Part shown: positions 29,987-41,284 of the stretch, piece by piece | How the letters are laid out: every line of letters begins with the position of its first letter | How positions within the stretch are numbered: position 1 is the first letter of the stretch | DNA from: Actinoallomurus bryophytorum | GTDB taxonomy: Bacteria; Actinomycetota; Actinomycetes; Streptosporangiales; Streptosporangiaceae | Length of the DNA: 64,000 bases | Direction of reading: 5' to 3' | NCBI RefSeq assembly: GCF_006716425.1 | Contig: NZ_VFOZ01000001.1 | Coordinates: forward strand, 5,146,001 to 5,210,000 | The notes under the pieces: model-generated | What the model was told of the DNA's origin: nothing | The model's database searches: none | The model's input: the letters and a program-made list of their open reading frames with translations, nothing else | Position numbers and translations under genes: made by a program

Positions 29987-30547
29987 TCAGCCGTCGGCGA
30001 GGCGTTGGATCGTCGTGCCGAGCCACTCCTCGAGCTCGGCACGGTCGCCCAGGTCGGACCGCAGCAGTCGGCGGCGGGTCAGCACGCCGACGACGAAGGC
30101 ATCGATCGCGGCGGCCCGGTCGCGGGCGCTCGCGTCGTCCAGGCCGGTGTCGCGCAAGTAGCGGTGCAGCGGCTCCATCGCGTTGGTGTCGTAGAAGGCG
30201 GCCAGCGCCTCCGCCGCCTCGGGGCGTTCCCCCGCTGCGCGCAGCAGCGCGAGCAGCGGATCCTCGCCGGGCAGGTCGAACCAGCGCGTGACGATGCTCG
30301 CGGCGAGCCGCGCACCGAGCGAGGACCGGTCGCCTTCGATCGAGATCGAGACCGGGATCTCCACCCGCGTCGCCGCGAGGAAAAGGCCGTCCTTGCCACC
30401 GAAGTAGCGCGTGATCAGGTTGGGCGACACCCCTGCGGCGGCGGCCACCCCGGTGACGGTGACCCCCGCGAACCCTCGCTGGGCGAACTGGCGCTGCGCC
30501 TGCTCGAGGATCCGTTGCCGGGTGGCGGCGGCATCGCGGGTTCTCAT
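29987..30547 (-). CDS. TetR-family repressor of the divergent epoxide hydrolase
   Basis: A 186-residue TetR regulator. The N-terminal helix-turn-helix reads RQRILEQAQRQFAQRGFAGV, then VTGVAAAAGVSPNLITRYFG. The C-terminal helices form the ligand and dimer domain. ATG 30547 lies inside the 44-bp palindrome that also contains the start of the divergent epoxide hydrolase. An upstream in-frame start at 30565 would add six residues encoded by the palindrome. Either way there is no room for a Shine-Dalgarno site, so the message may be leaderless. It very likely binds the palindrome and represses both genes. Confidence 0.9.
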   Translation of the reverse strand: MRTRDAAATRQRILEQAQRQFAQRGFAGVTVTGVAAAAGVSPNLITRYFGGKDGLFLAATRVEIPVSISIEGDRSSLGARLAASIVTRWFDLPGEDPLLALLRAAGERPEAAEALAAFYDTNAMEPLHRYLRDTGLDDASARDRAAAIDAFVVGVLTRRRLLRSDLGDRAELEEWLGTTIQRLADG

Positions 30548-30588
30548 GTGTATGAGCATACACATCGATGTGTATGCTCATACACATG
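30545..30588. promoter_or_regulatory. Perfect 44-bp palindromic double operator
   Basis: The whole segment equals its own reverse complement. It contains two sites, TGTGTATGAGCATACACA (30547-30564) and TGTGTATGCTCATACACA (30569-30586), each with 8-bp arms around a 2-bp centre and set 22 bp apart centre to centre. Both divergent start codons lie at its edges. It is a clear TetR-type operator pair. Confidence 0.85.
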
Positions 30589-31638
30589 AACGACGAACTC
30601 CGAGAACGTCTCCGGCACCGGCGTCGCGTCACCGTCCCGTGGAGCGACGACCCCACCCGCGGCGTCGGCGGCGCCACCTTCGACGCCCTGCTCGACCGGT
30701 GGGCGAACGATTTCGACTGGAGCGTGCACGAGCGCCGCATCGACGGGCTGCCTTGGCGGTCGGTGAGGTCGGGCGACACCGAGCTGCGCCTGATTCACCA
30801 GCGGTCGGCCTATCCGGACGCGCCGGTGGTGGTCCTTCTGCACGGCTGGCCCGACTCGGTGCTGCGTTTCGAGCGCGTCCTGCCCCTGCTCACCGACTTT
30901 CATCTGGTGGTGCCGGCGCTGCCGGGCTTCCCGTTCGCGCCGCCGCTCACCACCCCCGGCATGTCGGCCAACCGCATCGCCGGCATCGTCGCCGACGCCC
31001 TCGACCAGCTCGGCTACGGCCGCTATACGCTGTCCGCCGGCGACGTCGGCGGCATCGTTGCCGAGATCCTCGCGGCCGAGCACCCCGACCGGGTGGCGTC
31101 ACTGCACCTCACCAACGTCGCGTTGCGCCGTGCCGCCACCGCGGACCCGGCCAGGCTCGCCCCCGACGCGGCCGGCTATCCCGCCCAGGCTGGGCAGTGG
31201 TCCCGGGCCAACGGCGGATTCGTCGCCGAGCAGTCGACCCGGCCCAACACGCTCGCCGTGGCCCTCGGTGACTCTCCCGCCGGGCTCGCCGCGTGGATCA
31301 CCGAGAAGCTGCAGGCGTGGTCGGGCGAGGGAGCCTTCACCCCGGACGACATCCTCACCTGGGTCAGCGCCTACTGGACCACCGGCGCGATCGCCACGTC
31401 GTTCGCCACCTACGTCGAACCGCCGGCCCTTGCCCCTCGCGTCGACACGCCGACCGTACTCTCCGTGTTCGCAGACGACTTCCTCCCGGCGCCGCGCGGC
31501 TATGCCGAGGCATTCCTCAACGTCCGCGAATACGTGGAGCACCCAGCCGGCGGACACTTCGCGGCCTGGGAACAGCCCGAGGCATATGCCGCCGACGTCC
31601 GCCGCGCGATCGAGCTGGGCGGCGGTGTCGGTTCTTGA
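30586..31638 (+). CDS. Epoxide hydrolase-like alpha/beta hydrolase
   Basis: A 350-residue alpha/beta hydrolase of the epoxide hydrolase branch. A shortened EHN-like start (FDALLDRWANDFDW) is followed by the oxyanion motif LHGWPDS, the nucleophile Asp153 in SAGDVGGIV, and a C-terminal HPAGGHFAAWEQP carrying the catalytic His. It should hydrolyse epoxides or related electrophiles, though the substrate is unknown. ATG 30586 lies on the edge of a palindromic double operator; an upstream in-frame ATG at 30568 exists inside it. Induction by TetR release in response to the substrate is the simplest reading. It is distantly related to the gene at 8346-9500. Confidence 0.87.
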   Translation: MNDELRERLRHRRRVTVPWSDDPTRGVGGATFDALLDRWANDFDWSVHERRIDGLPWRSVRSGDTELRLIHQRSAYPDAPVVVLLHGWPDSVLRFERVLPLLTDFHLVVPALPGFPFAPPLTTPGMSANRIAGIVADALDQLGYGRYTLSAGDVGGIVAEILAAEHPDRVASLHLTNVALRRAATADPARLAPDAAGYPAQAGQWSRANGGFVAEQSTRPNTLAVALGDSPAGLAAWITEKLQAWSGEGAFTPDDILTWVSAYWTTGAIATSFATYVEPPALAPRVDTPTVLSVFADDFLPAPRGYAEAFLNVREYVEHPAGGHFAAWEQPEAYAADVRRAIELGGGVGS

Positions 31639-31889
31639 CCGCGCATCGATGCGGCAGGAGCCGGCCATGCTTGGATCAACTGTTCGAAGGTCCTATCCGA
31701 ATGGATAGATGTAGCGCACTTGGACCGTCCAAGTTCCGCTCGGAGCAGGGCCAACTCCGGTGCCGTCCGAAAACGCGTTCCGCGATCGGTTCTTGATCAA
31801 CTGGCGGCCCCGATCACCGACGGTGAGGTCGTGGCCCGTCCGTATCGGCCCGCCCATTCCTGGACGGTCATGCCGCCAGGAGTCCCCTC

Positions 31890-32556
31890 CATGGCCGGCG
31901 TGATGCTCGGGGCATGGCGTGGCGAACAGATCGCCTCACTGATCGAGCCCTGGACCGGCATGTTGCGTAAAAGGGGGTGTGGGCCGCGTTCTGTCCGTGA
32001 TCGACCACGCGAACGCGGTGCTGCACAACGGCATCGGCCGCTACGACGTCGCGCTGGAGGCCGCGAGCGCGGCGTGCCGGCACGACGAACTGGGATCCGC
32101 CGCCACTTTGCCGGAGCTGGTGGAGGCGGCTACGCGCAGCGGGCAGCCCCGGCTCGCCGAATCGGCGCTGGAGCGCCTGGTGGAACGCACCCAGGCATGC
32201 GGTACCGACTGGGCGATCGGCGTCCAGCTCTCCTCGCGCGCGCTCCTCAGCGATGGTTCTGGGGCCGAGGAGGTCCACCAGGATGCGATCTACCGGTTGG
32301 AGCACACCCAGGGTGTCGTCGACCTGGCCCGCACACACCTGACCCATGGGGAGTGGTTGCGCCGTGAGTCCAGGCGCGGCGACGCCCGGACCCATCTGCG
32401 TCTCGCGCACGACATGCTGGCCGCGATCGGTGCGGCGGGCTTCGCGGCGCGGGCCGCATCTTCAAGAAGCTTGACCTCACCTCTCGTCGGCAGCTCCGGG
32501 ACCTGCGAGCGAACCGGCCGGCCGACTTCCTCGAAATAGGCGACGGAGGGAACTAG
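31890..32556 (+). pseudogene. LAL-type LuxR regulator relic
   Basis: Pieces of a large ATP-binding LuxR (LAL) regulator remain. The first is LGAWRGEQIASLIEPW; then, after a frameshift near 31975, come the TPR-like part (DHANAVLHNGIGRYDVALEA ... ELVEAATRSGQPRLAESALE ... THLTHGEWLRRESRR) and FAARA. After another shift near 32455 the frame reads IFKKLDLTSRRQLRDLRAN, the last helix of the LuxR DNA-binding domain. The ATPase domain and most of the helix-turn-helix are gone. It directly precedes the peptide/P450 cassette and may be its lost regulator. Confidence 0.75.
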
Positions 32557-32783
32557 GTGGGTCTCGCCGCTACGCCTGGGCTACCTCGACTAATGCCCTT
32601 TACAGTTAATCGACACCCGGCCAATGTCAAGACAATTAACATATTTTCGAAGCATCTCTAGTGAAGGGCCCACCGTGCCATGCGAAAGCGATGTAGAGGC
32701 CTTGGATATTGACGGCCGCCTTGGTACGGTGCGGGTGTATTGTTCGAAACATCATCGATTTCGTGTCGAAGGAGGCTCAGGTT
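32557..32783. promoter_or_regulatory. AT-richer leader before the small peptide gene
   Basis: A 227-bp non-coding stretch with local AT-rich blocks (around 32595-32650). A TTGACG at 32709-32714 could be a -35 element with a weak -10 near TATTGT (32738). AAGGAGG at 32769-32775 is an ideal ribosome binding site for ATG 32784. Confidence 0.4.
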
Positions 32784-32933
32784 ATGGCTAATTCTGGGGA
32801 CGTTATGGTTCATCCTGGGGAGCTGCAGGACCTGCTCACCACCATGGCCGAGTCCGAGCCCTCGCCCGAGCAGGGAACGGGCGAGCAGCGGATGGAATTC
32901 GGGATGATTGCGTGGTACCTCGAAACTCGATGA
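32784..32933 (+). CDS. Candidate ribosomal-peptide (RiPP) precursor, 49 residues
   Basis: A short gene with AAGGAGG placed 8 bp before ATG 32784. The product has a leader-like N-terminal part with an amphipathic helix (VHPGELQDLLTTMAES, residues 9-24) and an acidic Pro/Gly/Gln linker (residues 25-36). Its C-terminus is rich in aromatic residues (MEFGMIAWYLETR, residues 37-49). Trp44-Tyr45 in an AWYL context is the kind of site a P450 can cross-link, and the core of tryptorubin starts AWYI. It is followed by an M29 peptidase, a P450 and an MFS exporter on the same strand. I have not matched it to any known precursor. The alternative is a small regulatory or unrelated protein. Confidence 0.55.
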   Translation: MANSGDVMVHPGELQDLLTTMAESEPSPEQGTGEQRMEFGMIAWYLETR

Positions 32934-33178
32934 GCATCGAGTCATGGCTGACGCCCGCAAGGTAAGTGCTCACGCAATATCAACTGCCGCGCGTTCGGGC
33001 GTGTCCTGGTTTCGGTAGGTCCGATTGGTCGGGTCTCAGGCCAACTCTGTCGGGGTGGGGTTCGCCCGCTGCGTTGTCTTGTACCGGCATAAGTGCGCGG
33101 CCTACCACAGGTCCGGAGATTTCGAAACCGGCGGTTATTGCGCGGGAGCACTAAGGGAAAGGTAAGGCGCCGGTCGGG

Positions 33179-34456
33179 TTGCTCGCGAGCAGTGGTGACT
33201 CCTCCGGCATGACGCCGGAGGAGTCACGACGCCTTGGGCGGAAGATCGTCACTTTGGATCCGCAATTTTGGGGAGCGACAATGACTGGGCAGATGGTCGA
33301 TGAGCGTGTCTTCGAGGGTGTTGACGCGTTGCTGGATGACTTCGTGGCGATCACGGGTGGGGACACACTCGTGATCACTTACACGCCTGACAGCCGCGAG
33401 CCCGCTGCCTGGGTCGCGCTCGGTCTCAAGCATCGCGGCTTCAACGCTGCCATCGTTCCCATGCTTCCGTTGGAGGACGAGAGCTTCGCCGGACGGCTCG
33501 CCGAGGCGCTGCCAGATCGGTCCGCGCTGCAGGGCCGGTTGGTCATCATCACCCTGGAGCGGGACACGATGTCGCACTTCGACGTGTTCCAGCCCATCCT
33601 GGGCCACTACGGGCCGGACAAGACCATGATTCTGCGAATCATCAGCGCGTCCACTGATTTCTTCACCAAGGCGCTCAATGTCAGTCCTAGGGAGTTGTCG
33701 AGGCTCAATGCCACGTTGCTCCACCGGGTCAACAGCGCCAGGCGGGTACGTGTGACGACGTCGGGCGGAACTGACATCACCGTCGAACTCGACAGTGAGA
33801 AGTACCAGTGGCTCAGCAACCGAGGTGTGTGGCGCCCTGGTGGCTTCACCATCCTCCCCGCGGGGGAGATCGCCACTTACCCGGTCAGTGTCGAAGGAGT
33901 CCTGGTCGCCGACGGCGCGTACAACGCTAATATCATCAGCGACCTGAACGCGAAACTGGCCGACAACCCGGTCCGAGTCGAGATCGAGGCCGGAAAGGCT
34001 CGTGATCTCACCTGTGACAACGCGAAGCTCCAAGAGATGTTCCAGCTCTGCTTGGACAGCCCGAATGGTCGTAATGTCGGCGAGTTCGGGCTCGGTACGA
34101 ATCATGGTATCGATGAGTACATCACCGCGAACTCTCATATCAACGAGCGCCGTTGCGGTCTTCATCTAGGTTTCGGACAACACAACCAGAGCTTGTCCCG
34201 CGTTCCCTACATGGCCTATGCGCATCTGGATCTGATCACCGACGGTGGTCTGATGTGGATAGACGATGAGGTCGACCCCATTGATCTGTCACGTCTCGAG
34301 CCCATCGACGTTCCTCATCCAGTCGACGCGCTCGACGAGGACATCACGGGCGACTGTTGTGGCATGGGGTACCGCCAGCTGAAGGGGCTCTCGGACCCGT
34401 CCTGCGCGATTCCCGAAGCCTCCCCGGAGCGGGGCAGTGACACCGTGCGTATTTAG
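33179..34456 (+). CDS. M29-family (AmpT/PepS-like) metallo-aminopeptidase
   Basis: A protein of about 425 residues, the usual M29 size. The N-terminal domain contains LVITYTPDSREPAAWVALGL. The C-terminal metal site is complete: Glu230 (PAGEIATYP), Glu302 (GEFGLGTN), His329 (HLGFGQ), and His349 with Asp351 (AHLDLI). M29 enzymes are two-metal exo-aminopeptidases that act processively on peptide N-termini, which would suit removal of a leader. The start is uncertain: TTG 33179 follows AAGGGAAAGGTAAGG, while ATG 33209 lies in the loop of a strong hairpin. Codons are less GC-biased than in housekeeping neighbours. A C-terminal Cys pair (DCCGMGY) and tail extend beyond the peptidase fold. Confidence 0.82.
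   Translation: MLASSGDSSGMTPEESRRLGRKIVTLDPQFWGATMTGQMVDERVFEGVDALLDDFVAITGGDTLVITYTPDSREPAAWVALGLKHRGFNAAIVPMLPLEDESFAGRLAEALPDRSALQGRLVIITLERDTMSHFDVFQPILGHYGPDKTMILRIISASTDFFTKALNVSPRELSRLNATLLHRVNSARRVRVTTSGGTDITVELDSEKYQWLSNRGVWRPGGFTILPAGEIATYPVSVEGVLVADGAYNANIISDLNAKLADNPVRVEIEAGKARDLTCDNAKLQEMFQLCLDSPNGRNVGEFGLGTNHGIDEYITANSHINERRCGLHLGFGQHNQSLSRVPYMAYAHLDLITDGGLMWIDDEVDPIDLSRLEPIDVPHPVDALDEDITGDCCGMGYRQLKGLSDPSCAIPEASPERGSDTVRI
33197..33225 (+). promoter_or_regulatory. Strong hairpin at the start of the M29 gene
   Basis: A perfect 12-bp stem (GACTCCTCCGGC / GCCGGAGGAGTC) encloses a 5-base loop that contains the alternative start ATG 33209. It could lower translation of the enzymes relative to the upstream peptide, act as partial terminator, or mark an RNA processing site. 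Confidence 0.5.
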
Positions 34457-34642
34457 CACGTTCGTTGAGATTGACTCTGATGTCGACGTAGCCGACGGAT
34501 CGGCCGGCGACATGTGCGCCCGGTAGCAGAGGGCGTCGACTGGGACCGTTGGCCAGAAACCTGCAAAACCAGCTCACGTCCCGCGGGCCTGCGCAGCGGC
34601 CGAGCGGCCGTTCGTTCCACCTCCGAGGGGAGAGTCCCGAAA

Positions 34643-35881
34643 ATGGTCAACCCGCCCACGGACGACGCCCGTCCGCGATCATTCCCCATGCCACGGTCCT
34701 GCCCGATGCGTCCGCCGGACCAGTACGCTGAGCTGCGAGCCGGGGCACCGCTCGCAAAGATCACTCTGCCTAGCGGGCGGACCGCCTGGCTGATCACGCG
34801 CTATGAGCACGTCCGCCGATTCCTCGCCAACGGGAATGTCACTACGAACCGGCTACACCCTAATTTTCCTTTCTTCCTCCCGCTATCCCGAAAATTGAGG
34901 GAAGACGTCAATGCGTCCCTCATGAGCCTGGACCCGCCGGAGCACACCGCGCTGAGCCGGATGGTGATCCCCGAGTTCACCCACAAACGCACGCAGGAAC
35001 TGCGGCCCCGCGTGCAGAAAATCGTGGACGATCACATCACGGTCATGCTGGACGGCGACCGGCCGGCAGACCTGGTGGAAGCTCTCTGTCGCCCGGTCGC
35101 CTCGCAGGTCATCTGTGAACTCATCGGCGTCCCCTACGACGATCGCGAGCTCTTCCAATCGGCCAGCAAGGTGATGGCCAGCCGGAACAGCAGCTGGGAC
35201 GAACGCTGGGAGTCGGGCGCCAAGCTTCGGGGCTACCTCAGCGATTTCGTGGCGACGAAGGCGAAGGAGGCCGAGGAGTCGGGTGCCGCGCCGGGCGACC
35301 ACCTGATCGGCCGGGTCATCGCCAAGAACCAGGAGAAGCGCGTCCTCCAAGAGGAGGACATCGCCGCGTTGTGTCTGTCGCTCCTGAGCGCCGGGCACGA
35401 GACCACGGCCAACGTGATCTCACTCGGCACCGTGCTGTTGCTCGAGAACCCCGAGCAGCTTGCCACGATCCGGGCCGATCCGGGCCGCACCCCGGGCGCG
35501 GTGGAGGAGATCCTGCGCCACACCAGCATCACCGATCCGAGTGGGCTGCGAGTGGCGCAAGCCGACATCGAGGTCGGCGACATGGTGGTCAAGAAGGGCG
35601 ACGCTGTTGTCGTGTCCACCGCGGCGGCGAACTGGGATGACAGTGTCTTCGCCCAGCCAGAGAAACTCGACTTCGACCGCGACGCGCGGCATCAGCTGGC
35701 CTTCGGCCACGGCATCCACCGGTGCGTCGCCCAGAACCTGGCCCGTGTCGAACTCGAGATCGTGTTCAACACTCTGTTCGCCCGGATTCCCGGCCTCCGG
35801 CTCGCGGCCCCCGTCGAGGAACTGTCCTTCAAGGATGGCGCGCTCCTCTACGGCATCCACACATTGCCCGTCACCTGGTGA
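34643..35881 (+). CDS. Cytochrome P450
   Basis: A 412-residue soluble bacterial P450, close to the CYP105-like group. The I-helix oxygen-activation motif is AGHETT (residues 250-255), the ExxR pair is Glu289/Arg292, and the heme-ligating Cys361 sits in FGHGIHRCVAQNLAR. An early RCPMRPPDQYAEL matches the P450 N-terminus. ATG 34643 follows GAGGGGAGAG; the longer frame upstream is not P450-like. It lies 186 bp after the M29 gene on the same strand. In this setting it is the most likely tailoring enzyme for the upstream peptide, for example by aromatic cross-linking or hydroxylation. Redox partners are not encoded nearby. Confidence 0.92.
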   Translation: MVNPPTDDARPRSFPMPRSCPMRPPDQYAELRAGAPLAKITLPSGRTAWLITRYEHVRRFLANGNVTTNRLHPNFPFFLPLSRKLREDVNASLMSLDPPEHTALSRMVIPEFTHKRTQELRPRVQKIVDDHITVMLDGDRPADLVEALCRPVASQVICELIGVPYDDRELFQSASKVMASRNSSWDERWESGAKLRGYLSDFVATKAKEAEESGAAPGDHLIGRVIAKNQEKRVLQEEDIAALCLSLLSAGHETTANVISLGTVLLLENPEQLATIRADPGRTPGAVEEILRHTSITDPSGLRVAQADIEVGDMVVKKGDAVVVSTAAANWDDSVFAQPEKLDFDRDARHQLAFGHGIHRCVAQNLARVELEIVFNTLFARIPGLRLAAPVEELSFKDGALLYGIHTLPVTW

Positions 35882-35919
35882 GAAGGTGCCGCCACTGTCC
35901 GGACATTTCGCGCAACCTT

Positions 35920-36198
35920 ATGAGCGTGTGGTCGCCGCGCTTGCCGCCCGGCCCGCTGCCTCGCGGCCTGCCTCGATCATTTCGAGGCTGTCCTGGACCG
36001 ACATGCGACCACGGAGCCTCCGTAAGCGCGTGCGGCGGCAGGCCGAACCTGATCCTGGTCATGCGGGCTGACCAGGAAGGGTATCGCCTGGCCGCTCAGC
36101 GGTCGGCGCGCCGAATCAGTCGCCGCCGCTCGCGCGCCGAGGCAGGCGAATACGCAGATACCTCCTGGACGGCCGCCTCCGAGGGTAGGCGCGCGTGA
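35920..36198 (+). CDS. Doubtful 92-codon open frame overlapping the MFS start
   Basis: An open frame from ATG 35920 whose stop overlaps the MFS start in GTGA, the usual sign of coupling. The product is basic, with NLILVMRADQEGYRLAAQ and an Arg-rich segment (RRISRRRSRAEAGE), but it has no recognisable domain and the first 45 residues look like a chance GC frame. There is no clear ribosome site. It may be a decayed gene or only the leader of the exporter. Confidence 0.22.
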   Translation: MSVWSPRLPPGPLPRGLPRSFRGCPGPTCDHGASVSACGGRPNLILVMRADQEGYRLAAQRSARRISRRRSRAEAGEYADTSWTAASEGRRA

Positions 36199-37496
36199 CG
36201 GCGAGCCCACCCCGTGTCGCGGGCACGGCCGTGACCTCCGGAGAGCCTGCCGTCCGCTTGCTGGCTCCGCTGCGGGAACGACGCTTCGCGCTGTACCTCA
36301 TCGGCCAGCTGCTCTCCCAGGTTGGCGACGGCATCTATCTCGTCACACTGCCATTCGTCATGCTCAACCAGGGTGGCGGCCCCGCGAACCTCGGCGTGGT
36401 GCTGGCCTGCTACGGAGCGGCCAGGCTGGCCCTCTTCCCGGTCGGCGGAGCGCTTGCCGACCGCGTGGGCGCCCGGCCGGTGATGCTTGCCGCGGACGCG
36501 CTCCGTGCCCTCGTCGTGCTCGGTTTCGTCGCGCTCGCCGCCGATGGTCACATCCCCCTGTGGGCCATGATCACGGTTGCGGTCCCGTTCGGCATCCTCG
36601 GCGGAATTTTCATGCCGGCCTCGTTCGCCGTACTGCCGCAAATCGTACGTCCCGAGTCGCTCGCTCCAGGCAACTCCCTGATCCAGATCATGCAGAGCAC
36701 GTCGAGGATCGCCGGACCCGGGCTAGGTGGAACGCTCGTCGGGTCGCTCAAGAGCGGTGTGGGGCTGCTGATCGACGCGATTACCTTCCTGGTATCCAGC
36801 CTGACCCTGATGGCGATCCGCCCGTCCAGGCCGGCGGTCGAAACAGCCGATGAAACGGCGGCGCAGCACGCCAACGACGGCGTCCAAGACAGCGACCGAC
36901 TGCGGACTTGGCGATCGGTGCTGCGGTATGCGTCCAGCTCGCCCCTGGTAAGGATGACCCTGCTGACCACGCTCGTGTTCAACCTCGCCGCTGTCGGCTT
37001 GATCGAGGTCGCGCTGCCGAGCTTCGCCCAGGGTCCGCTGGGCCGCGGAGCCCCCGGGTTCGGGATCATGATGACCGGCCTCGGTGGCGGCTCGGTCATC
37101 GGAGCACTGCTGGGCCCGACACTCCTTCGCCTGCGCCGTCGCGGGCTTATCGCACTCTGCCTCGGCATCGCCGAGGGACTTGCTCTGATGGGTATCCCGG
37201 TGGGCTCTTCGCTGGTGGTGGCGACCGCGGCGCTGTTCACCGCCGCGTCCTTGCAAGCGATGGTGAACGTCTTCTACATGACGATGCTCCAGCAGACAGT
37301 GCCTGCCCGAGCGCTGGGTAGAGTCATGAGCCTGCTGGTCACCTGTGCCGGTCTCGCCTACCCTGCCTCCGCGCTACTCGCTGGGAACGTCCTGGGCGGC
37401 ACGGCCGACCCGGAGGCCGTGATCATCGTCGCCGGACTGGGCGTGTCGGTGTCCTTCTCGGTCGGATTCTTCAGCAGGCCGTACCGAAACCTCTGA
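36195..37496 (+). CDS. MFS exporter
   Basis: A 433-residue major facilitator with twelve predicted helices of the MFS_3 (macrolide/enterobactin exporter-like) group. The first helix starts RRFALYLIGQLLSQVGDGIY. The A-motif-like loop is GGALADRVGARPV, and the mirrored second half begins MTLLTTLVFNLAAVGLIEVA. A cytoplasmic linker of about 40 residues (ETADETAAQHANDGVQDSDR) joins the halves. GTG 36195 follows GAGGGTAGG. As the last gene on this strand after the peptide, peptidase and P450 genes, it probably exports the finished compound or confers self-protection. Confidence 0.88.
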   Translation: MTASPPRVAGTAVTSGEPAVRLLAPLRERRFALYLIGQLLSQVGDGIYLVTLPFVMLNQGGGPANLGVVLACYGAARLALFPVGGALADRVGARPVMLAADALRALVVLGFVALAADGHIPLWAMITVAVPFGILGGIFMPASFAVLPQIVRPESLAPGNSLIQIMQSTSRIAGPGLGGTLVGSLKSGVGLLIDAITFLVSSLTLMAIRPSRPAVETADETAAQHANDGVQDSDRLRTWRSVLRYASSSPLVRMTLLTTLVFNLAAVGLIEVALPSFAQGPLGRGAPGFGIMMTGLGGGSVIGALLGPTLLRLRRRGLIALCLGIAEGLALMGIPVGSSLVVATAALFTAASLQAMVNVFYMTMLQQTVPARALGRVMSLLVTCAGLAYPASALLAGNVLGGTADPEAVIIVAGLGVSVSFSVGFFSRPYRNL

Positions 37497-37884
37497 ACCC
37501 CAATCGCGCCCGGCGCGGTCCTGGCGGTCGACGCTGAGAACTGTGGGCGCCGAATACTGCGTCACCCCATGTGACCTGGGCGTATTCGCTACGCGATCGA
37601 TGGCGCGATCCTCACCGGCTACCGGCTGCGGCACTCGTACGAGCGTTACGCCCCGCACGGTCGTCTGCCTGCCTCGTCGGCTCTGCCTCGCGGACGCTGA
37701 GCTCCCAACTCGTGTATCCGGTCACGGTGGATGGCGAGCGTGTTGAGCTGGATGAGCACCGAGTCCTTGCTCGCGTGCCCCCCTCTCCCGGGTGAGCCGG
37801 ATCGTCTCAGCGAGGGAGGACAGCCCCGCGGGCATGCGTGATGGTCCTTGGAGATCATTTCTCCGACGGCCGCGGGAGGCCACG
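37497..37884. other. Gap with an IS-end relic
   Basis: No intact gene is visible. Bases 37549-37587 match the outer end of the IS relic at 50290-50328 in about 30 of 39 positions, in the same orientation. The rest holds short frames only. GGGAGG at 37874-37879 serves the next gene. Confidence 0.45.
37549..37587. repeat. IS-end-like repeat, matches 50290-50328
   Basis: Starts GCCGAATACTG and ends CTGGGCGTATTC; the other copy starts GCCGAATATTC and ends CTGGGCATATTC. In the other copy the segment covers the last codons and outer end of an rve-type transposase, so this is probably a solo remnant of the same element. Confidence 0.5.
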
Positions 37885-38918
37885 GTGCCGAACTCCTCGA
37901 AGGCGCTCGGGCGGCGGTGGGCGTGGCGGTCGTGGCGAGATCGGCCCGAGGCCGTGAATCACGCGGCGACCGTGCTCGCCATCGGATTCGGGTGCCTGGC
38001 GTTGATGAGCGCACTCCTGGGCCGCCGGACATTCATCGGAATCCAGAACGGTGCTCTTCCCGGTGCCGCGGTGATGTTCATGGGCGCCTCCGCCGTACGG
38101 GCGACCGGACGCCCCTGGGGCGCTCGTATCCGCGTCCGGTGCTCTGGACGCTGGGGAGCGTGGCGGGCCTGTCACTCGCGGGAAGCTGCTTCGTGCTCCT
38201 CGATCTGATCCAGTTGGTGTTGACCGGGACGGTGAGCGACCGCGATGGAAACAGTGACTGGACGGCCTTCACCGAACGCCTTGTCGCGGTGGCCCTCGGA
38301 GCTTTGTTCGCCGTGAGTGCGACATCGTGGCGGCGCCGCACGGAGGGCACCTGCCCGCGGTGCGGCCGTGAGCATGCTCCCGACATGGCGCGGGTCGCGT
38401 ATCCCGCCCCGAGTGCGGCTCCCCAGCGGGTACGCCGCTTCGCCTATGCGGGCTGTCTGGCGTTCCTGCCCTATCTCGGGCTGCACGGCCTGCACGCGGC
38501 CGGCCTGACCCACTGGTACGACAAGCTGTACTCCGACCAGGGCATTCTGCCCGGCCCCCGGTTGTTCGTTTTCGCTCTCCTGGCTCTCGTTCTGGTAGGC
38601 CCCGCGGTCTTCCTGTTGCTGGGTCTGGTCCGCCCGTGGGGGATGAGGTTCCCGCGATGGTGCATGGGGTTGGCGGGCAGACGGGTGCCACGTTTCCTGC
38701 CTCTGGTGCCGGCCTGGATCGTCGCTCCCACCCTTGCTCTGTACGGGACGTGCAGCATGGTCTACGCCCCCATGGCCGGGTACACGCTCATCGGGCTCGG
38801 GGGCGCCGCCTCACTCGCCTTCGGCGTCTACGGCTGGGCGCTCACCGCGGCCGCGGTGTCGTACCAGCGCCGGTCGCTACCAGTCTGCGTACCGGGAGAT
38901 CCCCCTTCCCGGCGGTGA
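37885..38918 (+). pseudogene. Membrane protein gene with a frameshift
   Basis: The first part, from GTG 37885 (after GGGAGG), encodes two helices (NHAATVLAIGFGCLALMSAL and GALPGAAVMFMGASAV). Near 38110-38130 coding shifts one frame and continues with LWTLGSVAGLSLAGSCFVLL, a CPRCGREH zinc-ribbon-like loop, and four or more further helices up to 38918. Joined, they make a plausible polytopic protein of about 345 residues. The frameshift is either real decay or a sequencing error. I do not recognise the family. Confidence 0.6.
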
Positions 38919-38946
38919 CGAGTCGTCCGGCGGCGGCCGCCAGCCG

Positions 38947-39246
38947 CTACCGCTGCCGAGCCCGGTCCGGCCTGCGCCAAGACGGCCGGATCCTGTGCGT
39001 GCCGAAAACCTCGTCCGCGTTGTACGACATGCATTGATGTGATCTGTGCGGGGGAGAGGCGCTGTCCGCTGCGGGTGAGCATGATGGGTGGTCATGTGCC
39101 TGCGGAAACGGGTGCCGCGGCAGGCGGTGGACCATCGCCACAGTGTGAGTGCCGGTGCACGCCCCGGCCGTCGTCGCCGTCAGGCCGATCAGGCCGGCCG
39201 AGACCAACGCCCCGGCCGCCACCCGGCCGAAGTAGGTCTTCGACAT
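38947..39246 (-). CDS. Small secreted protein, possibly decayed
   Basis: A 99-residue frame with a good signal peptide (SKTYFGRVAAGALVSAGLIG, ending ATTAGA) behind GGAAGGA. The predicted mature part is rich in His, Pro, Ser and Arg without visible fold, and the C-terminal 40 residues look like chance coding. The 5' end may be real and the 3' end frameshifted. It is convergent with the membrane pseudogene. Confidence 0.4.
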   Translation of the reverse strand: MSKTYFGRVAAGALVSAGLIGLTATTAGACTGTHTVAMVHRLPRHPFPQAHDHPSCSPAADSASPPHRSHQCMSYNADEVFGTHRIRPSWRRPDRARQR

Positions 39247-39620
39247 GGCACATCCTTCCCGTTCAAGCCTTGGTGAGCCGACACCGGCGACCATGGAGCC
39301 GCTGCGGCAAGGGTCGTGGCCCTTGGTTCGCATCAGGAGATGGCCTCGTTGCCACGCCGCGTGGGTCGTTTGGCGCCGACAACGCGATCGCGAAATCCAC
39401 CAGACCCTTTACCGCCGCCCGTGTCCGTATTGAACCGATTTCGCACCAACGTCGGTCATCTTCGTCCTGCCACGAGGATGACGGGCCGATCTCGGAGCGT
39501 GCGTCACCACAAGCCGCCGTGACGGCCTCCGTCGGCGCCTCGTTGATCCTGACGTTGGTGCCCAGCGGAGGCAGCATCGCGGGGGCTTCGTGCATCTAAC
39601 GAATATGAAGGATGCGGGAT

Positions 39621-40142
39621 ATGAGTGGTGAAGCCCCGACGCGGGTGCGGCGAGCCGCCGACGGGTCATTGCTGAAGTTGTATTGCGAGCAGCAGGTCGG
39701 GTTGATCCGGCTCGGCGTCGTAATGCTCGGAGATGAGGCGAGCGCGGAAGACGTTGTACAGGACGTATTCGCGCGGATGTTCAAGACGGCGCCTGATCTG
39801 CGGGATGAGGCGAAACTGCTCGCGTACGCCCGGAGCGCCGTGCTCAACGGCTGCCGTCAGGTGCTTCGTCGGCGCAAGCTGGCATGGCGCCATGTGCACT
39901 TTTATGAGCGCCCGGTGTGGTCGGCGGAGTCTGCGGTTCTGTTGCGCGAAGACCAGCGAGACGTGATGGGAGCGTTGCGGCGGCTGCCAAGACGCAAGCG
40001 CGAGGTTCTGATACTCCGCTTTTACCTTGAGCTATCCGATGCCGAGATTTCCCGCACGCTGGGGATCCGGCCAGGAACAGTCCGATCCACGATGTCCCGG
40101 GCGTTGAGTTCTCTGGCAAGGGAACTGGGGGAAGAATCATGA
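39621..40142 (+). CDS. ECF-type RNA polymerase sigma factor
   Basis: A 173-residue sigma factor of the SigE-like ECF class. Region 2 reads LKLYCEQQVGLIRLGVVMLG with DEASAEDVVQDVFARMF. Region 4 reads LRRLPRRKREVLILRFYLEL, then SDAEISRTLGIRPGTVRSTM. ATG 39621 follows AAGGATG; an in-frame ATG lies at 39612. Its stop overlaps the next gene in ATGA, and that gene encodes a membrane-anchored propeller likely to control it. A third gene for a lipoprotein follows. The set resembles a cell-envelope stress or surface-sensing unit. Confidence 0.9.
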   Translation: MSGEAPTRVRRAADGSLLKLYCEQQVGLIRLGVVMLGDEASAEDVVQDVFARMFKTAPDLRDEAKLLAYARSAVLNGCRQVLRRRKLAWRHVHFYERPVWSAESAVLLREDQRDVMGALRRLPRRKREVLILRFYLELSDAEISRTLGIRPGTVRSTMSRALSSLARELGEES

Positions 40143-41284
40143 CCAGTATCGAGGAGCGGCTTCGGGATGCCATCCGCGCGACCGCCGCGACCGTCGATGA
40201 GCACAAGCACCGGCCGCCGCCCGTCATCACGGATCGCCGGTCCCGAGCGTGGCTGACACCGGTGGCGGTCGCGGTCGCGGTCGTGACGGCGATCACCGGG
40301 GCTTCGGCGATCGCAAGGAGATACGTTGCTGCGGGACCGGCCACGGGATCGGGAATGCCGCGATTCCTTGTCACCACGGACACCGAGTCGAGCCCGGGCC
40401 ATCTTTCGCGTTTGCTGGTCGAGGACACGGCGACGGGCAGAGTAAGTGACGTCCGAACGATGCCGATGCCTGTTTCGTTTCGGTACGTCGCTGCTGGCCC
40501 TGACCAGACCTTCTATGTCCTCACCGAAGCAACCGGTGGCAATGACTGCGCGATTGATACCTTTCAGCTGAAGGTCTCCGCGGTCGGACGAATAATTCGT
40601 TTCGCGAAGCTTTCCGGCGGGGACATTCCACATGTCACGGTGACTCCGATCGGCGGTATCGCGATCTCACCGGACGGTCACCGGATCGCGTACGCCTATC
40701 GTGCGTGCAGTTCTGAACGGGGAACGCCTGGGATCGGGGTTCTCGACATTCGCTCCGGGACTTGGCAGAGGTGGCGAGATGGAGGTTCCGCTGGAATCAG
40801 CAGCCTCTCGTGGACTGCTGACGGTCGCTATCTCGCCTATCTCTTCCGTGATTCCGCTGACGGCCAGAACGATGGACCGCCGGTGAACGGCACGGCCCAG
40901 ATGAGGCTGCTGGATACCAAGGGAGCGCATCGCGTCCTGCCCGCCGGTGCCGTATTGCTGCGCGAGTCGAAGCGACTGCCGTACATCTGGGGGGCGCTCG
41001 TCAGCCCGGACGGGAAGCGAATCATCGTGGCGGCCCAGGACCGTCCGGTGACCTCAAGCGCCTACGACGGAGTGTTCTCGGTGCAGCAGGTCCGAGTGGG
41101 GGACGGGAGCCCGGTGGGCCCCCTCTACCGATCCCGCCTCGGTCCCGCAGGCACCAATCCGGTGTTGGCTGGTGACATCTCCGGCCTTCATCTGCTGTTG
41201 TGCACGGACCGGATGGGCTGGATCGACACCCGCGGTTTCCATCGAATCCCCGGCGACGGTCCATGCAATGGCCTGGCGTGGTGA
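40139..41284 (+). CDS. Membrane-anchored propeller protein, probable sigma-factor regulator
   Basis: A 381-residue protein. A cytoplasmic N-terminus (SIEERLRDAIRATAATVDEH) is followed by one membrane helix (residues 38-60, WLTPVAVAVAVVTAITGASA) and a long extracytoplasmic domain of WD40/TolB-like blades (IAISPDGHRIAYAY, GISSLSWTADGRYLAYLF, WGALVSPDGKRIIVAAQ). This layout fits anti-sigma-like proteins of actinobacterial ECF factors whose outer part senses a signal. It overlaps the sigma gene by four bases. No zinc motif is seen in the N-terminal part, so the inhibition mechanism is unclear. Confidence 0.75.
   Translation: MTSIEERLRDAIRATAATVDEHKHRPPPVITDRRSRAWLTPVAVAVAVVTAITGASAIARRYVAAGPATGSGMPRFLVTTDTESSPGHLSRLLVEDTATGRVSDVRTMPMPVSFRYVAAGPDQTFYVLTEATGGNDCAIDTFQLKVSAVGRIIRFAKLSGGDIPHVTVTPIGGIAISPDGHRIAYAYRACSSERGTPGIGVLDIRSGTWQRWRDGGSAGISSLSWTADGRYLAYLFRDSADGQNDGPPVNGTAQMRLLDTKGAHRVLPAGAVLLRESKRLPYIWGALVSPDGKRIIVAAQDRPVTSSAYDGVFSVQQVRVGDGSPVGPLYRSRLGPAGTNPVLAGDISGLHLLLCTDRMGWIDTRGFHRIPGDGPCNGLAW

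Follow-up and report, generated by a model that had tools for sequence, protein, structure and literature searches.

A candidate RiPP cassette pairing an M29-like protein with a cytochrome P450 in Actinoallomurus bryophytorum

Layout and distribution of the cassette

The window analysed here is a stretch of 64,000 nucleotides from Actinoallomurus bryophytorum (contig NZ_VFOZ01000001.1, positions 5,146,001 to 5,210,000), and its subject is a cassette of four genes on one strand at 32784-37496: a 49-codon gene, a gene for a protein related to M29 metallo-aminopeptidases (the M29-like protein), a complete cytochrome P450 and an exporter of the major facilitator superfamily (MFS). The cassette is very probably a system for a ribosomally synthesized and post-translationally modified peptide (RiPP) with a conserved leader and an A-W-Y-L core. 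An earlier note, made from the letters alone, had listed these four genes, the first with an ideal ribosome site, and coordinates and model scans confirm that layout. The peptide gene runs from an ATG at 32784 to a stop ending at 32933 (49 codons), and the AGGAGG upstream of it matches the Shine-Dalgarno (SD) sequence at 6/6 positions. The start of the M29-like gene in the open reading frame (ORF) list, TTG 33179, was dropped, as relatives and spacing favour ATG 33281 (stop 34456); for the P450, GTG 34514 was dropped on the same grounds in favour of ATG 34643.

32784..32933, plus strand: precursor peptide gene, 49 aa, leader ..ELQDLLTTMAESEPSPEQ.., core region ..AWYLETR (perfect SD, related peptides in six other P450-type loci, ratio of nonsynonymous to synonymous differences, pN/pS)
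33193..33229, plus strand: predicted stem-loop between the precursor and M29-like genes (folding and covariation)
33281..34456, plus strand: M29-like protein with dinuclear-site residues, aminopeptidase Tyr lost, C-terminal EDxxGDCC (alignments, profile comparison)
34643..35881, plus strand: cytochrome P450 (Pfam p450, solved-structure matches)
36195..37496, plus strand: MFS exporter (model scan)
32625..37507, plus strand: DNA common with Actinoallomurus iriomotensis (L003), within window 30000-41000 (blastn, four pieces)
31979..32536, plus strand: relic of a LAL regulator, a neighbour outside the conserved cassette (same-genome comparison)

Peptide, M29-like, P450 and MFS genes stand together in all seven P450-type loci (the window, L003-L007 and L096), which belong to Actinoallomurus and Pseudonocardiaceae, and the RiPP-type grouping of small precursor, P450 and exporter proposed in the earlier note is thus conserved as a unit. 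A scan of genome contigs with the M29-like protein gave five loci, each with all four genes, in A. iriomotensis, Actinokineospora inagensis, A. terrae, A. auranticolor and Amycolatopsis xylanica; the seventh locus, L096, was added when 390 genomes from the family of A. terrae were searched. Identity to the window P450 is 82-92% in L003-L007. Within window positions 30000-41000, the DNA held in common with the same-genus A. iriomotensis is limited to 32625-37507 and ends just beyond the cassette. In comparison with Actinokineospora inagensis, the M29-like DNA shows 91.0% identity against 62.0% for dnaN, the sole yardstick gene, and the G+C content of the peptide and M29-like genes is 60.8% against 68.2% for the window. 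Judged by these sequence comparisons, the cassette has been transferred horizontally.

The precursor peptide and the intergenic hairpin

In the window peptide an acidic leader would be followed by a short core, centred on A-W-Y-L, at the C-terminal end. Related peptides occur at the equivalent position in all six other P450-type loci; the leader ELQxLLTxMAESEPxP is almost constant in six of the seven precursors compared, and A-W-Y-L lies near the C-terminal end in 6/6 compared precursors and likewise in the seventh (L096). Among six of the seven loci pN/pS ranges from 0.25 to 0.94 and is below 1 in 15/15 pairs, and insertions and deletions in six precursors are of whole codons. Peptides related to one another at the same position, with pN/pS below 1, indicate that the small gene is more than a chance frame. 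The cassette thus shows what is generally expected of a RiPP system, a small precursor gene beside modifying enzymes whose product has a conserved leader and a distinct core. At 32784-32825 the start of the window precursor contains an imperfect 21-nt repeat (15/21 by eye), the first unit of which is absent from the Pseudonocardiaceae orthologues.

A strong stem-loop lies between the precursor and M29-like genes in 8/8 folded loci (-36 to -57 kcal/mol, z -2.7 to -9.5), the stretches having been chosen by eye in these eight loci only; in the window a 61-nt stretch gives -38.5 kcal/mol and z -6.3. Compensatory changes affect 7/16 pairs among the seven P450-type loci. The hairpin may serve to raise precursor output over that of the enzymes, this being a usual position for such an element. 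A strong hairpin downstream, together with some pN/pS pairs near 1 (0.94, 0.86), could also be expected if the small gene were a regulatory leader or a chance frame and not a substrate. That explanation is very improbable given the 15/15 pairs below 1, the conserved C-terminus, and two further loci of the wider clade described below, L048, in which a related leader precedes a different core, and L069, in which the core is repeated twice.

The M29-like protein and its clade

The five M29 metal ligands that the earlier note had claimed are present in the window protein as E196, E268, H295, H315 and D317, and a further metal-site residue, E289, is also kept. The window protein has no match to Pfam M29 (PF02073) at E<=1; seven of the 13 members of alignment A2 do match, the best at 1.1e-5. 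Among 18 unbroken proteins of the clade, a count that excludes the broken M29-like genes of L069 (cut off) and L100 (three frames), all six metal-site residues and a C-terminal DCC are constant, and H301 is present in 17. Five of the six residues of the aminopeptidase motif EEHYHD are retained; the Tyr is replaced by Asn in 14 proteins and by Gly in four, and is present in none. Two motifs, NSHxNER and EDxxGDCC, are specific to the clade.

Homology to M29 aminopeptidases (AmpT, PepS, AmpS, AmpII) is seen in the metal ligands held in common and through distant relatives: the clade profile matches a profile of 11 ordinary relatives with a probability of 99.9, and the latter matches AmpT, PepS and AmpS in the PDB. 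The clade differs from these enzymes in its lost catalytic Tyr, low similarity, extra motifs and the RiPP-like context of the loci seen. A PDB profile search with alignment A2 (E<=1) gave no match, and L058 matched no related chain in the PDB. In the profile search of distant relatives NicX was also found (7cn3, 9.1e-12), which might suggest a mononuclear iron oxygenase on the M29 fold; NicX, however, has Phe (P-S-G-F in the alignment) where 18/18 clade members keep the first Glu ligand, and this explanation was rejected as extremely improbable.

In a tree of 17 M29-like rows, 14 clade rows split from three outgroup rows with support of 100/100, the interior being mostly unresolved. The clade comprises 20 genes in 19 genomes and is sparsely distributed. 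At E<=1e-10, 10/341 genomes of the window's own family match, two of them (G061, G166) with distant M29-like proteins, and the window genome (G000) has one match; the family of A. terrae has matches in 9/390 genomes and that of G1004 in 1/35, namely G1004. A class-wide search found matches in 3/394 genomes, the window's genome included, and a phylum search in 37/396 at 1e-5, all of them weak once the window's genome is excluded (best 3.1e-19, 28% identity). Among plasmids, four records gave distant matches only. G135 and L003, whose sequences match, are counted as one genome.

The closest described proteins appear to be CgnB and CgnE of the crocagin pathway (Chondromyces crocatus), a likeness of description and residue order; what is said of them here follows Adam et al. 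(2023; PMC10070186). There they are reported to resemble M29 aminopeptidases in sequence and structure, to lack aminopeptidase activity and to bind the precursor, and together with CgnC, a dioxygenase, they convert Ile-Tyr-Trp to a tetracycle; CgnA with CgnB or CgnE is reported to give no product in the absence of CgnC. The dinuclear site of CgnB (Glu161, Glu252, Glu274, His280, His291, Asp293), proposed for elimination or ring closure, has the same order of ligands as window E196, E268, E289, H295, H315 and D317, with a Glu-His spacing of 6 in both but a His-to-His spacing of 11 against 20 in the window protein. Both systems have M29 descent with little or no Pfam similarity (for homology to CgnB or CgnE, 21-42% identity is reported), an oxygenase and a core with adjacent aromatic residues. 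As with CgnB/CgnE, the window cassette encodes an M29-derived protein with an intact dinuclear site; it has a single copy, whereas crocagin has a broken second copy and L048 has two copies, neither of which has lost its site. The window protein further differs in its C-terminal EDxxGDCC motif, no cassette gene resembles CgnD, CgnL or a carbamoyltransferase, and a CgnC-type dioxygenase is missing from the window cassette, a PhyH dioxygenase being found only in L048. No chain named CgnB or CgnE appeared in the PDB profile searches (A3 and A5 at E<=10, A2 at E<=1). All six EEHYHD residues of LmAmpII are reported to be essential, and mutation of Tyr352 abolishes its activity (PMC7023490). The reported properties of CgnB, the common ligand order and the need of LmAmpII for its Tyr together favour a CgnB-like role, and the M29-like protein is probably not an ordinary trimming peptidase. 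Since homologues are reported from about 100 genomes, Actinobacteria among them (PMC10070186), some of the loci described here may be in the supplement of the crocagin paper.

Conservation of the small frame beside the P450, which the earlier note had asked for, held; its companion expectation that M29 and P450 would not be found apart did not, as 12/19 loci have an M29-like gene with no relative of the window P450 in the stretch compared while the small gene still adjoins it, indicating that the P450 is a swappable part. No clear relative of the window P450 was found in any of these 12 loci by tblastn of the stretch fetched, some contigs ending close by. In the clade as a whole 17/20 genes come after a small gene whose product has Trp close to the C-terminus or within repeated cores, and the partners include P450, HExxH hydroxylase, PhyH, B12 radical SAM (rSAM) and YcaO proteins. 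A core pattern like A/S-W-x-I/V-x-Y-S/T-T recurs in four precursors: those of L048 (MPAPEEMNELLTKMAAVEP..AIAWSISYTTFRS, its leader related to the window type and its core different), L061 (..SWSVSYTTSRPEDVDY), L069 (two AWSISYSTS repeats at L069:9459-9890, upstream of the cut-off M29-like gene) and L098 (..AAWEITYSTHHNPDVAGPC, with an MFS gene among its neighbours). The neighbours of L048 include PhyH, a second M29-like gene and MFS, as well as two M16-type matches below the models' cut-offs and one M1-type gene (by eye); at L048:786-9128 the second M29-like gene keeps the metal-site residues and the peptidase-like genes lie near the first copy. L097 (L097:9129-14530; precursor ..APWTINCSA) has YcaO directly after the M29-like gene and a nitroreductase-type protein further on, and is possibly an azole-type relative. 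The precursor of L099 (..SAWETEE) has a methyltransferase partner, and that of L100 (..SPWQLWEISTPTAS) precedes a broken M29-like gene. Precursors of L062-L064 end in ..ERDWGIG/A; L062 encodes a B12 radical-SAM RiPP C-methyltransferase (TIGR03975, 597 bits), and L063 and L064 seem to do so from inspection of their sequences. At L060:5915-6100 a Cys-rich 61-aa ORF lies upstream of thioredoxin-like, ABC transporter and signal-peptidase genes, possibly a separate bacteriocin system beside the M29-like locus.

As a control, 27 of the 29 loci L019-L047, those that passed the filter, were used. The motif [ASPD]W.[ILVE] occurs near the end of a small ORF upstream of 13/18 clade genes, 1/2 broken genes and 1/27 other M29-like genes; the motif was picked after the data had been seen, and the test is automatic and needs a small ORF with a ribosome site. 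Any small ORF is found upstream of 18/18, 2/2 and 20/27, respectively, so that its presence alone means little.

These partners allow a broader proposition, offered tentatively, that the clade forms a RiPP hub independent of class, in which a metal-dependent maturase of peptidase origin recognizes or modifies an (A/S)-W core with P450, PhyH, HExxH, B12 radical SAM or YcaO partners and sometimes alone. Another reading would make the M29-like protein the main modifying enzyme throughout the clade, carrying out a backbone or Trp-centred metal reaction, with P450, PhyH, HExxH, rSAM and YcaO as later decoration. No other enzyme occurs at every locus (the loci having been found through the M29-like protein), a scan of three L098 neighbours gave no further modifying enzyme, the W motif is common despite differing leaders, and additional residues are conserved clade-wide; yet we know of no reaction of this kind for the M29 fold acting alone. 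In the crocagin precedent, moreover, CgnB or CgnE with CgnA is described as giving no product without CgnC (PMC10070186). This reading is quite unlikely.

The P450, the proposed pathway and neighbouring features

The window P450 matches Pfam p450 (1.8e-24) and has AGHETT, EEILR and FGHGIHRC by eye. Its best solved-structure match is the compactin 3'',4''-hydroxylase (2z36, 2.4e-114); P450-SU1 and named CYP105 enzymes rank after it among the best 60 of 212 matches. The match to ApyO is weak (2.3e-12, 46 bits against a cut-off of 525 bits). An aKG-HExxH peptide beta-hydroxylase is additionally present in three of the seven P450-type loci (L006, L007, L096); that of L006 matches TIGR04267 with 72.6 bits (cut-off 40), and identity to it is 89% over 322 residues in L096 and 82% over the first 60 in L007. 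These three cassettes also carry a regulator gene, which in L007 has weak helix-turn-helix and LuxR-type matches.

Atropopeptide, biarylitide and aminopyruvatide systems likewise place a P450 beside a tiny precursor with a Trp/Tyr core, and in their style the P450 might cross-link the core Trp and Tyr while the M29-like protein trims the leader as an aminopeptidase, the latter as proposed in the earlier note. The core start A-W-Y-L is near the AWYIWY motif of tryptorubin, OxyB cross-linkers are in the P450 match list (best 60 of 212), all M29 metal ligands and the neighbouring Glu are present, the M29-like gene is the only peptidase-like gene in the seven P450-type cassettes, and the three scanned neighbours of L098 gave MFS only and no modifying enzyme. 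To our knowledge, however, the minimal atropopeptide and biarylitide systems have no M29-like protein, and among solved structures the P450 matches a hydroxylase best. Ordinary trimming also fits poorly with the absence of the catalytic Tyr from 18/18 proteins, the clade-specific NSHxNER and EDxxGDCC, and L048, where two M29-like copies stand with three peptidase-like genes; CgnB and CgnE, moreover, are a precedent reported as inactive as aminopeptidases (PMC10070186). On balance this combination is unlikely.

The preferred model, to which we assign a probability of about 50%, is of a mobile RiPP cassette in which precursor binding falls to an M29-like protein that works like CgnB, and oxidation of the core to the P450. 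It starts from what can be read in the genomes, namely the conserved unit, the precursor-like peptide, the metal-site residues, the loss of the aminopeptidase Tyr and the RiPP-type partners in relatives. With the precursor bound, the M29-like protein would offer the Trp (and Tyr) of the core for oxidation by the P450; hydroxylation is the simplest outcome and Trp-Tyr coupling a possible one. Elimination or ring closure, of the kind proposed for CgnB, may then be driven by the dinuclear metal site that the protein has kept. Removal of the leader might fall to a protease whose gene is not part of the cassette or else to the M29-like protein, and the product would leave the cell through the MFS exporter.

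Several observations weigh against this model. In addition to the pN/pS pairs near 1, OxyB-type cross-linking P450s appear lower in the P450 match list (best 60 of 212), and the Tyr is likewise absent from 6/11 ordinary distant M29 relatives, so that its loss by itself proves little. The oxygenase of crocagin, CgnC, is aKG-dependent, whereas the window cassette has a P450 (with HExxH added in some loci), and the crocagin core is a C-terminal Ile-Tyr-Trp where the window core is Trp-Tyr followed by LETR (crocagin features from PMC10070186). An AlphaFold2 model from alignment A1 (six close sequences) has a pLDDT of 43. The precursor candidates of L060 and L068 lack Trp and the second M29-like gene of L048 has no precursor of its own; in L060, L061 and L098 no modifying enzyme was found in the part of the neighbours scanned, which would fit a peptidase or self-sufficient role of the M29-like protein.

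Should the model hold, RiPP proteins of M29 descent, worked out for crocagin, would be known also from a compact and mobile actinobacterial system that uses a P450, and the role of the CgnB-like dinuclear metal site would become a testable question. An M29-like protein with EDxxGDCC and an adjoining W-core precursor would offer a genome-mining handle for RiPPs whose cassettes lack a familiar class marker. A RiPP system combining M29 and P450 was not found among the matches listed in openly licensed literature (titles and abstract openings). Bottromycin clusters also unite a peptidase, a P450 and MFS, but with a YcaO that the window cassette lacks and with BotP as an M17 peptidase (PMC10885120); neither YcaO nor an M17 BotP was detected in the four cassette genes and six scanned neighbours.

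Upstream of the cassette, the LAL-regulator relic at 31979-32536 that the earlier note had pointed out is real, with 58% identity to a section of a 1013-codon frame of this genome, at whose end a LuxR-type helix-turn-helix can be read by eye. The relic has no such region, and its tail is in a different frame. The LAL regulator was rejected as a component of the system, not being conserved across the cassette loci. At 30544-30590 divergent TetR and epoxide-hydrolase frames both begin MCMLIHM; a palindrome thus seems to span their starts, and the true starts may be downstream.

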